From: Anaerolineae bacterium
GTDB lineage: Bacteria > Chloroflexota > Anaerolineae > Aggregatilineales > Ch27
Length of the DNA: 64,000 nucleotides
Assembly: GCA_013178165.1 (NCBI GenBank)
Contig: JABLXG010000032.1
Coordinates: 1 to 64,000 of the forward strand
Reading direction: 5' to 3'
Below are positions 55,325-62,510 of the stretch, piece after piece; position 1 is the stretch's first letter; each line of letters starts with the position of its first letter. The notes under the pieces are model-generated. The model was not told the DNA's origin, ran no database searches, and saw nothing but the letters and a program-made list of their open reading frames with translations. The translations under genes were made by a program, and so were the position numbers.

Positions 55325-55360
55325 ACGCCTCGCCGGTCGTTCAGACTGGCGGGGCGTTTT
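55325..55360 (+). terminator. Rho-independent terminator of the histidine kinase/CpXC operon
   Basis: A 13-bp stem (acgcctcgccggt with actggcggggcgt, two wobble pairs) closes a 7-base loop and runs into TTTT. It lies 24 bases after the CpXC stop and abuts the stop of the convergent PBP-like gene. Confidence 0.8.
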
Positions 55361-56798
55361 AGCGTCTGGTGGCCGGGGATGGCCCGTAGAAGCGGGCTGC
55401 TGTGTCCAGAATCAGCCCCCCGGCGCGGGCTGCCTCATCGACGGCAGGCGTATCTTCAAGGACGACGACCGTAACTACCGCCGTACCATTCGGGAAGACG
55501 ATCGTGCCGGCAAACCACTGTAGCGGCCTGGCCTCTGGCCCGGCGTAAGCTGTGGCGGCATGGCCGAGGATGGGAAAGCTGCTCATGTCTTGCGCTGCGG
55601 TTGCGGCGCCTTCGGCCACAGCTGCAGCCATGTAGCCCTGCATCAGGTGGGCATTCTCGCGGGTGAGCAAGGCGCGGGAGAGTCCACTCGGCGGGACGGA
55701 CTGCCAGGCATCTTCGCCGGGCAGGCGAATGGCGTCAACCAGGCGGAAGAGCGGGGCGTTGCCGTTGTTGGCGATGGCGGCGACCAGCTCCAGAACCTGC
55801 AGCGGCGTTACTGTCAGTGGCCCCTGGCCAACCAAGCTGGCGATGACAGCGTCCCGCGTTTCCTGTAACGAAAGCGGCATTGGCGAATCGGCGGTGGCCG
55901 TGCCCAGGCCCAGCAGTTCCGGCGGGGTGAGCAGGCCAAAACGCCACAGGGCGCCATCGATCCGGTTAGTCTCCAGCAGGGTGGTTAGCCGGGCGAAAGC
56001 GCCGGGGCAGCCATACTGGTAGGCTTCCGGCAGGGTGAGTCCTTCGCGGGGGGCGGTGGCGCCGCAGGAGAGTTCCAGGCCATTGACACTGACCGTTTCG
56101 GTGGCGGTTGGCACGATGCGATCGATCGGGCTGCGCTCCGCCAGCAGGGCCGCCAGCAGGGCCGTCTGCAGTATACCGCCCGGCTGGTATAGACCCTGAG
56201 TCACCCGGTTGAGTAGCGGTGCATCCGGCGACTGGATCAGTACCGGCCAGTCTTCATCCAGAAAGTTAGGGTCATAGCTGGGGGCGCTGGCCAGCGCCCG
56301 GACACCGCCATCCGGCACCGTGATCACGACCGCTGCCCCGCTGCGGTTCGCCAGGGCTTGCATGGCTGCCTGTTGCACCTGCAGGTTCAGGGTCAATCGG
56401 ACATCGCCGCCGACGGCTGGCTGGTGAAGCAGGCCGCGCAGGGCGGTATCCAGCGGCCCGGGGCCGATTTCCCCGCGTAGCAGCGCATCATAGGTGGTTT
56501 CGATGCCGGCAGTGCCATAGCGCAGACTGTAATAGCCAACCGGCGGGGCGGCTTCCGGATGTGGATACAGGCGGCGTAGCCCGCGCCCATTGTAGTCGGT
56601 GCTTGTCTCGGCCAGGAGCATCCCATGCTCGTCGTAGATTCGCCCGCGCTGGAGAACCCGTTCGGCCTCGATCAGGCGCGGGTTGTCTGCTCTACGGAGC
56701 AGATCGTCGCTACGGATGATGCCCCAATAGGTGGCTGCCAGTGCCATGACCAGGAAGGCCAGCAACACGCCGCCTGTAACCCGGCGCAGCTCGGTCAT
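55359..56798 (-). CDS. Degenerate class B penicillin-binding protein (PbpA-like, catalytic motifs lost)
   Basis: A 479-residue single-pass protein with an N-terminal membrane helix (GGVLLAFLVMALAATYWGIIRS). The class B dimerisation domain is clear (ADNPRLIEAERVLQRGRIYDEHGMLLAE...RRLYPHPE). The transpeptidase domain keeps the overall order but lacks every active-site motif: the SxxK position reads GGILQ (about residue 205; normally GSTFK), the SxN position reads GCP (about residue 260), and KTG reads HAA (about residue 411, in GHAATAYA). It cannot cross-link peptidoglycan by the known mechanism. Start 56798 overlaps the rodA-like stop (ATGA), as in active rodA-pbpA pairs. A regulatory or scaffold role is inferred. 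Confidence 0.83.
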   Translation of the reverse strand: MTELRRVTGGVLLAFLVMALAATYWGIIRSDDLLRRADNPRLIEAERVLQRGRIYDEHGMLLAETSTDYNGRGLRRLYPHPEAAPPVGYYSLRYGTAGIETTYDALLRGEIGPGPLDTALRGLLHQPAVGGDVRLTLNLQVQQAAMQALANRSGAAVVITVPDGGVRALASAPSYDPNFLDEDWPVLIQSPDAPLLNRVTQGLYQPGGILQTALLAALLAERSPIDRIVPTATETVSVNGLELSCGATAPREGLTLPEAYQYGCPGAFARLTTLLETNRIDGALWRFGLLTPPELLGLGTATADSPMPLSLQETRDAVIASLVGQGPLTVTPLQVLELVAAIANNGNAPLFRLVDAIRLPGEDAWQSVPPSGLSRALLTRENAHLMQGYMAAAVAEGAATAAQDMSSFPILGHAATAYAGPEARPLQWFAGTIVFPNGTAVVTVVVLEDTPAVDEAARAGGLILDTAARFYGPSPATRR

Positions 56799-58087
56799 AG
56801 CGCCCTGTCCTCCTGCTGCCAGCGTGGCGGGGCGGAGAGCATCAGCAGCAGCCCGATCAGGCCGAAGTTCATCAACAGTGAACTGCCGCCGTAACTCATG
56901 AAGGGCAGGGTAACGCCGGTCAGAGGGATCACCTTGAGCACGCCGCCTATGATCAGCAGGCTCTGGGTGGCCAGCTGGACGCTGAGACCGGCGGCCAGCA
57001 GGGTGCGGAAATGCGACTCCGGCCACAGAGCCGCCAGCTGCATGCCGCGAACCACCAGTACGGCCAGAAAGGCGATGACCGCCAGCGTGCCTACCAGCCC
57101 CCATTCTTCGGCGATAGCCGCAAAGATGAAATCGGAGTGCACGACGGGCACATAAACGGGCAGGCCAAGGCCGATTCCCTGGCCGAGCACGCCGCCGGAT
57201 GCTACCGCCAGCAGACTTTGCACGATCTGGAAGGCCCGATCGCTGGCTTCCGGCCAGGGATTCAGCCAGACTTCAATGCGCAGTTCCACCACGCTGAACA
57301 GCCGGTAAGCTACCACAACGGCCAGCAGGAGCAACAGCAGGCCGAAAATCACATAGGTGATCTGGCCGGTGGCGATGTAGAGCAGCGTCAGAAAAACCAC
57401 GAAGAGCATGGTCGCCGCGCCCAGATCCTGCTGCCACACGGTGACGATGATGCAGATGCCCCACATCAGGAGCAGTGGCCCGAACGGGCGGAGTGACGGC
57501 AGCTTTCTGGCGAAGCCGTTGGGGTTTCGCAGGTCATCGCGGTAGTCGGCCATATAGCTGGCCAAGAAGATAACCAACGCCAGCTTGAGCAATTCGGAGG
57601 GCTGGAAATACAGTCCCCACGCTCCCAGCCACAGGCGCGGCCCCGCGCCGGAAGGGTTGACCCCCAGGATGATGCTGACCAGCAACAGCGCCAGGCCGCC
57701 CAGTAACCACGTGTAGCGGTAGCGGCGCAGCCAGCGCATGTGGATCGGCAGGGTGCTGATAGCCAACATCGCCAGGATGCTCAGCAGCAGCCAGATCGCC
57801 TGCCGCCAGGCAAAGTTTGGCGCCAGACGCTGGATCGTCAGCAGTCCCCAGCCGCTCAGCAGCATGGCAATGGCGAAGATCAGGGGATCACGCTGAGGCA
57901 GCAGACGATCCAGTGTCTGGTGCCCGAAGACGGCGGCGGCCAGCCATACGCCAAAGAGCACCAGCGCCCACCCGTTGTTCGCCGCCACGCTGAGCGTCAC
58001 AGCCGCAACTAACAGGAACAACCCGCCCAGAATAAGCAGGTTGCGCTCACGCAGGTGGGCGTTGTGGGTGACCCTGGCGAAAGTCAT
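56795..58087 (-). CDS. rodA: RodA/FtsW-family SEDS glycosyltransferase-like membrane protein
   Basis: A 430-residue protein with about ten membrane helices. SEDS features include LSGWGLLTIQRLAPNFAWRQ near helix 3-4, QPSELLKLALVIFLASYMADY, QQDLGAATMLFVVFLTLLYIATG, and TGVTLPFMSYGGSSLLMNF near the end. These are peptidoglycan-polymerising glycosyltransferase motifs known for RodA/FtsW. It forms the classical pair with the downstream class B PBP gene, which it overlaps by 4 bases. It follows mtnP by 15 bases on the minus strand. Confidence 0.92.
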   Translation of the reverse strand: MTFARVTHNAHLRERNLLILGGLFLLVAAVTLSVAANNGWALVLFGVWLAAAVFGHQTLDRLLPQRDPLIFAIAMLLSGWGLLTIQRLAPNFAWRQAIWLLLSILAMLAISTLPIHMRWLRRYRYTWLLGGLALLLVSIILGVNPSGAGPRLWLGAWGLYFQPSELLKLALVIFLASYMADYRDDLRNPNGFARKLPSLRPFGPLLLMWGICIIVTVWQQDLGAATMLFVVFLTLLYIATGQITYVIFGLLLLLLAVVVAYRLFSVVELRIEVWLNPWPEASDRAFQIVQSLLAVASGGVLGQGIGLGLPVYVPVVHSDFIFAAIAEEWGLVGTLAVIAFLAVLVVRGMQLAALWPESHFRTLLAAGLSVQLATQSLLIIGGVLKVIPLTGVTLPFMSYGGSSLLMNFGLIGLLLMLSAPPRWQQEDRAL

Positions 58088-59913: not shown

Positions 59914-60351
59914 CTACTCCAGTTGCAGGCGCAATGTTACACGTCCGATGCCGATCAGGTCGCCGCTGCTCAGGATGACCGGCTCACGGACGCGCGAGCC
60001 GTTCAGAAAGGTGCCGTTGCTGCTTCCCCGATCCTCCAGCCACCAGTTGCCTTCACGGTAGGTGATCAGGGCGTGTTCGTTACTGGCGAATGTATCGGCC
60101 AGATGCACAGTGTTAGTGGGGGCGCGTCCCAGGCTGGTGAGCGGGAGCAGCGGGAACTCGGTGTCCAGCGGAACTTCGTCGCTATCTGAGGCCAGGACGA
60201 TCAGCCGCCCGCGCGGGATGCGTCGCTGTTCGATCTCCCGCGTGGTGACCTGGTAATCCCGCCAGAGCAACAGGAGCAGGGCGCCAACAAACAGGAGGAG
60301 TAACCCGGCTGCGCTCAGCCGCAGGATGAGGAGCAATACCGCTTCGTTCAC
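59914..60351 (-). CDS. fhaB: Membrane-anchored FHA-domain protein (FhaB/FipA-like)
   Basis: A 145-residue protein. An N-terminal membrane helix (LRLSAAGLLLLFVGALLLLLWRDYQV) is followed by a linker and an FHA domain (residues about 68-143) with TSLGRAPTNTVHLAD, NEHALITYREGNWWLEDRGSSNGTFLNG. It binds phosphothreonine peptides. FhaB of actinobacteria is a substrate reader for the PASTA kinase and sits next to rodA-pbpA there. The start overlaps the fhaA stop (ATGA). Confidence 0.88.
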   Translation of the reverse strand: MNEAVLLLILRLSAAGLLLLFVGALLLLLWRDYQVTTREIEQRRIPRGRLIVLASDSDEVPLDTEFPLLPLTSLGRAPTNTVHLADTFASNEHALITYREGNWWLEDRGSSNGTFLNGSRVREPVILSSGDLIGIGRVTLRLQLE

Positions 60352-61145
60352 GGGGTCGATCCTTCAGGCGGTTGGGGCGGATGCAGGTCAAGCTGGGTGT
60401 CGGCCATCGTGCGGTCCGGCTGCTCGTCATCCAGGTAAAGCAGGGAGACTCCCCCAATCCGGATGACATCGCCTGAAGAGAGGATGTGCTCGCTGGTACG
60501 CTGGCCGTTGACGTAAGTGCCGCTCCGGCTATGACGGTCGTAGAGCACATAACGGCCCTGGCGCAGTCGAATCTGGAGATGATGGCGGGAGACGCGCAGG
60601 TCTTCCAGAATCAGATCGTTGTCCGGATGCCGGCCCACGTTGAAGACTTCAAGGTTCAGGGCGACGATTCGCTTGCCGTCCACAATCAGTTGCGCTCCTG
60701 CCGGGGGCGACGCCATGACCGGTAGGCCGGGCTGAACCGGCTCCAGAATCTGGGTAGTGTCATGCTTGCGTGCGCGGTGCTGGGCAGTGATCTGCACCTG
60801 CTGGCGTGGGATGTCCGCGTCAGCCAGCAGGCTGACTTCCGGCGTGCTGAGCAGGATCAGCCGGGCTTCCTGGCAATATGTCACCACCTGGCGGGCCAGT
60901 TGTCCCCCCAGATCGGGCATCTCTGCCAGCAGGAGGCGGTGATCGTGCGGGTTAAGCCGGATCTGGTACTGGGTCGGGGCTAACTCGCGCTCTTCCGGGC
61001 CAGCCAGAAGGTTGTCCTCAATGGCATGGGCCAGTTGCACGGCCACTTCCCGCGGGTGCACTGACGCGCGGAAGAGGCGGGAGAACCCGCCTTCGATCAG
61101 CCGCTCCAGCCGTTCTTCAAGCTGGTTGATTCGTCGCCTGGTCAT
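60348..61145 (-). CDS. fhaA: FhaA-like protein (DUF3662 + FHA domain)
   Basis: A 265-residue soluble protein. The N-terminal DUF3662 region (about 1-120) begins RINQLEERLERLIEGGFSRLFRASVHPREVAVQLAHAIEDN. A linker follows, then an FHA domain (about 165-245) with FNVGRHPDNDLILEDLRVSRHHLQIRLRQGRYVLYDRHSRSGTYVNG. In actinobacteria FhaA binds phosphorylated MviN/RodA-cluster proteins and regulates peptidoglycan synthesis. No kinase gene is in this window. The start at 61145 lies about 1 base after the predicted transcription start, so the mRNA may be leaderless. Confidence 0.88.
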   Translation of the reverse strand: MTRRRINQLEERLERLIEGGFSRLFRASVHPREVAVQLAHAIEDNLLAGPEERELAPTQYQIRLNPHDHRLLLAEMPDLGGQLARQVVTYCQEARLILLSTPEVSLLADADIPRQQVQITAQHRARKHDTTQILEPVQPGLPVMASPPAGAQLIVDGKRIVALNLEVFNVGRHPDNDLILEDLRVSRHHLQIRLRQGRYVLYDRHSRSGTYVNGQRTSEHILSSGDVIRIGGVSLLYLDDEQPDRTMADTQLDLHPPQPPEGSTP

Positions 61146-61180: not shown

Positions 61181-61445
61181 AGCCCCGCTCGCTGGTGGTG
61201 GGCGGGCAAGCCCTTTCAGCAACGATGGTGACGATCAGACAGGCCGCCTTCAAAGGCAAAGATGGGAGGCCGGAAGGGCACCGGAGGGGGATGGCGCAGT
61301 ACTCCCGGTTACTGGCTGCCACTTTGCAGATCGTGTGGGGCGGGTTAAAGTCGTAGGCGAGTGCACAGCCAGGGCGCGAATCGGGCTGCCGATCCGATCT
61401 GCCGCGATGGCGTGAAGGCACCTGGCAATCCTGGGAGAAAAACAG
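61181..61445 (+). other. Divergent intergenic region between fhaA and selD
   Basis: About 300 bases between the fhaA start and the selD start hold the fhaA promoter and, near 61433-61437, the GGGAG ribosome-binding site of selD. No tRNA or gene was seen in it. A weak ttgcag/ttaaag pair at 61324-61350 could serve selD but its spacing is poor. Confidence 0.5.
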
Positions 61446-62510
61446 ATGGCCAATCTGAACCGCCACGAAATCAGACTGACAGCGCTGGCAAGCTGCGCAG
61501 GCTGAGCGTCTAAGCTCGGCCCGAACGAGCTGGCGCACGTGTTGCGCCCGTTGCAGCAGATCTTTTTGCCTCAGGACTACCCCGATCTGATCATCGGCCT
61601 GAACCAGCCTGATGATGCGGCGGTGTACCGCCTGGATGATCAGCTCGCGCTGGTGGTGACAACGGACTTCTTCCCACCAGTGGTCGATGATCCGTATGAC
61701 TATGGGGCGATCGCCGCCGCGAACGCCATGAGCGATGTGTTCGCCATGGGCGGACGGGTGCTGTTTGCGTTGAACATCGCGGCTTTCCCTGCCAGCCTGC
61801 CGGCGGAAGTTCTGAGCGAGATCATGCGCGGTGGGGCGGAAAAGGTGCGGGAGGCCGGCGCCGCGATCGCCGGAGGGCACACGATCAAGGATGACGAACC
61901 CAAATATGGGCTGGTGGTCATCGGGTTGGTTGATCCTGGCCGTGTGCGCAGTAAGGCGGGTGCTCAGCCGGGCGATGCGCTGGTGCTCAGTAAGCCGCTT
62001 GGCGCAGGGGTGGTCACCACCGCGCTCAAGAAGGGCAAAGCCGAGCCGGATCACGTTGCTGCGGCGGTCGCCAGCATGACCCGGCTGAACCGTGCCGCGG
62101 CGGAGGCAGCCAATCGTGCCGACGCGCACGCTGTCACTGACATCACCGGCTACGGGCTGCTGGGCCACTGCCATGAGCTGGCGGAGTTGAGCAGGGTTGA
62201 CCTGGAGATCGATCTGAGAATGATTCGCTGGCTACCGGGAGCCGAAGAATACGCAGCAGCCTGGATCTTCCCCGGCGGTATGGCTGACAATCGCCTGTAT
62301 TATGAGCAGTGGGTGGACTTTGATCCGGGTATCCCTGAAGAGAAGCGCGCCCTGCTTTTTGACCCGGAAACTTCCGGTGGATTGCTGATCGCTGTTGCTC
62401 CGGAGCGGGTCGATGCGCTGATGCGCGATCTGGTAGCGGCCGGTGATGTGCCGCAGCGCATCGGTCAGGCAGTTGCCGGGACTGGGCGTCTGCGCGTCCG
62501 CGCCAGCTGA
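61446..62510 (+). CDS. selD: Selenide, water dikinase with in-frame UGA selenocysteine codon
   Basis: A 354-residue enzyme making selenophosphate. The obvious start is GTG 61539, but reading upstream in the same frame from ATG 61446 gives MANLNRHEIRLTALASCAG, then TGA (61503-61505), then ASKLGPNELAHVLRPLQQ. This is the SelD N-terminus, with the catalytic Cys/Sec position in the UGA and a Cys three residues before it. GGGAG (61433-61437) lies 8 bases ahead of the ATG. The rest is typical: DDAAVYRLDD, TTDFFPPVVDD, AAANAMSDVFAMGG, AIAGGHTIKDDEP, and ETSGGLLIA. A selenoprotein SelD requires SelA, SelB and tRNA-Sec elsewhere in the genome. The stop is also UGA, inside a target duplication. Confidence 0.9.
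61506..61535 (+). ncRNA. Candidate bacterial SECIS element in selD mRNA
   Basis: Directly after the UGA the RNA can fold into a lower 5-bp stem (gcgtc / ggcgc, 61506-61510 with 61532-61536), a two-base left bulge t-a (61511-61512), an upper 6-bp stem (agctcg / cgagct, 61513-61518 with 61526-61531) and a 7-base loop gcccgaa. Length and position fit SelB-dependent UGA decoding in bacteria. The exact loop consensus was not verified. Confidence 0.6.

Follow-up and report, generated by a model that had tools for sequence, protein, structure and literature searches.

An in-frame UGA, very probably read as selenocysteine, at the catalytic codon of selD in a Chloroflexota bacterium

The selenophosphate synthetase (selenide, water dikinase) gene selD of an Anaerolineae bacterium (Chloroflexota; Aggregatilineales) is almost certainly functional and encodes a product with selenocysteine (Sec) at the catalytic position, its in-frame UGA being recoded by means of a bacterial SECIS hairpin. 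The gene occupies positions 61446..62510 (+ strand) of the window, by which we mean the whole stretch of 64,000 nucleotides analysed here (contig JABLXG010000032.1). Among named records, the closest are a Chloroflexi MAG (91% identity) and Aggregatilineales MAGs (70-73%), which places the organism in Chloroflexota. The selD frame runs from the ATG at 61446 to the TGA at 62508-62510 and contains one internal TGA, codon 20, at 61503..61505 (+ strand), so that its 355 codons comprise the stop and 354 residues, the twentieth of which is Sec. A first-pass annotation, made from the letters of the sequence, had already proposed a UGA at codon 20 of a selD beginning at this ATG, preceded by a ribosome-binding site, and the sequence is as it described; the putative site is a Shine-Dalgarno-like GGGAG within tcctgggagaaaaacagATG (approximately 61430..61437, + strand), identified by its position a short distance 5' of the start codon.

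The identity of the read-through product is supported by highly significant similarity on both sides of the UGA, as had also been claimed. It matches TIGR00476 with an E-value of 3e-113 and 378 bits (cut-off 125), covering model positions 1-310 of 311, and contains the AIRS and AIRS_C domains (PF00586, PF02769). Its best match in the PDB is 3u0o, which we take to be the Cys-containing SelD of Escherichia coli (E=2e-76); the alignment extends over residues 6-346 and thus spans the UGA. Across codon 20 the alignment with solved SelD proteins is ungapped, Sec20 facing Cys17 of 3u0o and Lys23 facing Lys20, two residues with a catalytic role. The product therefore has what is expected of a SelD, namely a catalytic Cys or Sec (here U20) and, three residues further on, a Lys (K23), and its N-terminus aligns with Cys- and Sec-containing SelD proteins alike; the E. 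coli enzyme differs in having a Cys at this position and in needing no recoding. Comparison of codons 1-19 with a same-genus relative showed five synonymous and no amino-acid changes, indicating that the segment 5' of the UGA is coding, conserved, and under purifying selection.

Independent support for the Sec reading, absent from the first-pass annotation, comes from a SECIS hairpin located at 61532..61548 (+ strand), which we identified by folding, conservation, synonymous shuffles, and covariation. It is made of a 6-bp stem (GGCGCA/UGCGCC) and an apical loop, CGUGU, at 61538-61542, 32 nt past the UGA; counting the T of the TGA as 1, positions 30-35 pair with positions 41-46 (61532-61537 with 61543-61548), leaving 36-40 as the loop. 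In the published bacterial SECIS (bSECIS) consensus, the first or second base of the loop is a G with a U after it, and the UGA-to-loop distance is 16-37 nt (PMC13188914, Fig. 2). The selD hairpin agrees with it in its stem, its 5-nt loop with G at the second position and then U, its 32-nt spacing, and its minimum free energy (MFE) of -9.9 kcal/mol (below the published limit of -7.5), and it lies 3' of the UGA as in a Sec-encoding gene. Taken alone, this hairpin has a dinucleotide-shuffle z-score of only -2.0. Among the 35 UGA-containing selD genes of our sample (described below), the only wobble positions conserved at more than 90% within the 69 nt past the UGA are 30, 33, and 42, all of which belong to the stem; in genes with a Cys codon these positions fall below that level and the hairpin is largely lost. 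Moreover, the hairpin is stabler than the mean of synonymous shuffles in 35/35 UGA genes. The pair 36-40, which closes the loop, brings together the third base of a Gln codon and the first of a Leu codon, so that changes at both positions are silent; it is G-C in 18 genes, A-U in five, and mixed in none (p=3e-5, a value inflated by shared ancestry). In the genome under study these positions are C and U and do not form the N1-N2 pair that commonly closes the loop; the first and last loop bases are thus unpaired, whereas they are paired in most relatives, and C36 could pair with G39 instead. One UGA gene (L044, from genome G040) differs in sequence from the common SECIS and apparently relies on another hairpin. 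An Rfam scan of the whole window found no RNA family, and a tRNA search of the same 64,000 nucleotides found no tRNA.

Between the UGA and the SECIS, folding and synonymous shuffles point to an accessory hairpin (GCUCG...CGAGC in this genome; 61514..61530, + strand), whose register shifts between lineages. It is stabler than synonymous shuffles in 34/35 UGA genes versus 2/11 Cys genes. We tentatively consider, as a rather unlikely possibility, that recoding in the UGA-containing selD genes of the order depends on a signal of two hairpins, selection acting on the register-shifting one as well as on the SECIS; if true, the bacterial SECIS would exist here in a lineage-specific variant.

Conventional ORF finding places the start of the gene at a GTG (61539..61541, + strand), the sole ORF listed in this frame with table 11 being one of 323 aa. 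Translation might accordingly begin there, making the UGA irrelevant and the product a shortened SelD-like enzyme, and the frame is indeed open from this GTG to the stop. However, the GTG lies within the SECIS loop, so that the conventional ORF would begin past the Sec codon and lack the catalytic loop, as the first-pass annotation had pointed out, along with the Lys that follows the catalytic residue. In addition, codons 1-19 are conserved across families, with synonymous changes only in the nearest relative, the Cys-containing relatives read uninterrupted through the same region, and in close relatives the coding sequence ahead of the UGA is retained, as is the UGA itself, in place of a start at the GTG. 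A downstream start is thus very improbable, and we do not regard this GTG as the real start of selD. To retain the catalytic residue, an annotation of this gene must begin at 61446 and give codon 20 as Sec.

We compared the catalytic codon in this genome and 60 related genomes, in which 46 SelD genes were readable across it. The codon is TGA in 35 of them, a Cys codon in 11, and nothing else in any; the in-frame UGA is thus aligned with Cys in homologues, as in known selenoproteins. Its presence at the same codon in so many genes, together with the purifying selection acting on the upstream codons, indicates that this UGA is more than a chance occurrence. The assembly being a draft in 52 contigs, the UGA could have been put down to a sequencing error or to mutation in a pseudogene, but its recurrence in independent assemblies and an otherwise intact frame under purifying selection make this explanation highly implausible.

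The distribution of the Sec-decoding machinery parallels that of the catalytic codon. SelB is present in all 35 genomes with a UGA-containing selD and in three of the 11 with a Cys codon (Fisher p=6e-7, inflated by relatedness), and tRNA-Sec and SelA show almost the same pattern. In a SelD tree with the Sec/Cys column masked, at least three Sec/Cys changes are needed. For the study of Sec/Cys exchange in SelD, the order provides a natural, if small, data set, in which Cys forms mostly accompany SelB loss. One genus contains both states: G031 has a UGA-containing selD, SelB, and tRNA-Sec, and G010 has a Cys-encoding selD and neither SelB nor tRNA-Sec, which, judged from these gene contents, is a Sec/Cys exchange accompanied, within a single genus, by loss of the Sec machinery. 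A TAG flagged in the G010 match was rejected as another Sec codon, because its position is 5' of the start codon and the codon for the catalytic residue is TGC; a TAA was flagged in the match of G027, whose catalytic codon is also TGC. The UGA gene of G040 with the different downstream hairpin is nested by sequence among Cys-encoding genes, and may either have reverted from Cys to Sec or have kept Sec throughout. Three genomes (G020, G032, and G047), as well as the more fragmentary G025 and G024, possess SelA, SelB, and tRNA-Sec, yet no SelD above the family cut-off; by eye, the best weak hits in two of these, G020 and G024, resemble proteins of the HypE/AIRS type. Because G032 and G047 share one genus, the absence of SelD may exceed a draft gap, and these two may decode Sec without a recognizable selenophosphate synthetase. 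Finally, G046 has a SelA (503 bits) but no SelB, tRNA-Sec, or SelD above cut-off.

The first-pass annotation had suggested searching the genome itself (4.19 Mb, 98.6% complete) for the Sec machinery, and all three components expected of an organism that makes selenoproteins were found: SelA (545 bits for a cut-off of 268), SelB (353 bits for a cut-off of 242), and a tRNA-Sec (73.6 bits with Rfam, UCA anticodon by ARAGORN). Further selenoproteins were sought by family only. The formate dehydrogenase FdhA of this genome (C3, L048) is a second selenoprotein: its frame contains a single internal TGA (L048:1885), located within the motif HCARL-U-H at the known Sec site; this rules out SelD as the sole selenoprotein of the genome. 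A hairpin with the loop CGUGC, similar to the SECIS loop of selD, is located 23 nt 3' of the FdhA UGA; a longer FdhA stretch folded no better than shuffles. A role in selenouridine formation as the reason for keeping SelD is unsupported, since no match to the selenouridine synthase mnmH/YbbB was found in this genome or its 60 relatives (0/61).

The selD frame alone would be compatible with a genome-wide reassignment of UGA to an amino acid such as Trp, Gly, or Cys, the residue then not being Sec. This can be set aside with near certainty given the presence of tRNA-Sec, SelA, and SelB, the absence of internal UGA in SelA, SelB, and the other elongation-factor matches of the genome, and the use of UGA as the commonest terminator in the window, where it ends 19 of 35 retained long ORFs, selD included (shadow frames are among these ORFs).

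We therefore favor Sec at codon 20; its actual insertion and the activity of the enzyme are inferred from sequence. Ribosomes would start at the ATG at 61446 and, on reaching the UGA at 61503, SelB bound to Sec-tRNA-Sec and to the hairpin at 61532-61548 would bring about Sec insertion in place of termination. The finished SelD would convert selenide and ATP to selenophosphate, from which SelA would produce further Sec-tRNA-Sec to serve both SelD and FdhA.

Sec-containing SelD has long been known in many bacteria and is widespread, being the second most widespread selenoprotein family of prokaryotes; the present gene is thus a further, well-supported member of a known family. It resembles the Sec-SelD/SPS2 proteins of the Haemophilus influenzae type (TIGR00476) in its fold family, its N-terminal catalytic Sec, and a SECIS located just 3' of the UGA within the coding region. 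It differs from them in coming from a Chloroflexota lineage and in its motif, CAG-U-ASK versus GAG-U-GCK (GAGCGCK in E. coli), in which the second Cys is replaced by Ser and a Cys is found three residues before Sec. The gene is divergent to two consecutive FHA-domain genes (59914-61145, - strand), of which the upstream one carries an FhaA N-terminal domain; this pair adjoins ORFs at 55359-58087 which, judged by eye from the ORF list, are penicillin-binding-protein-like and FtsW-like.
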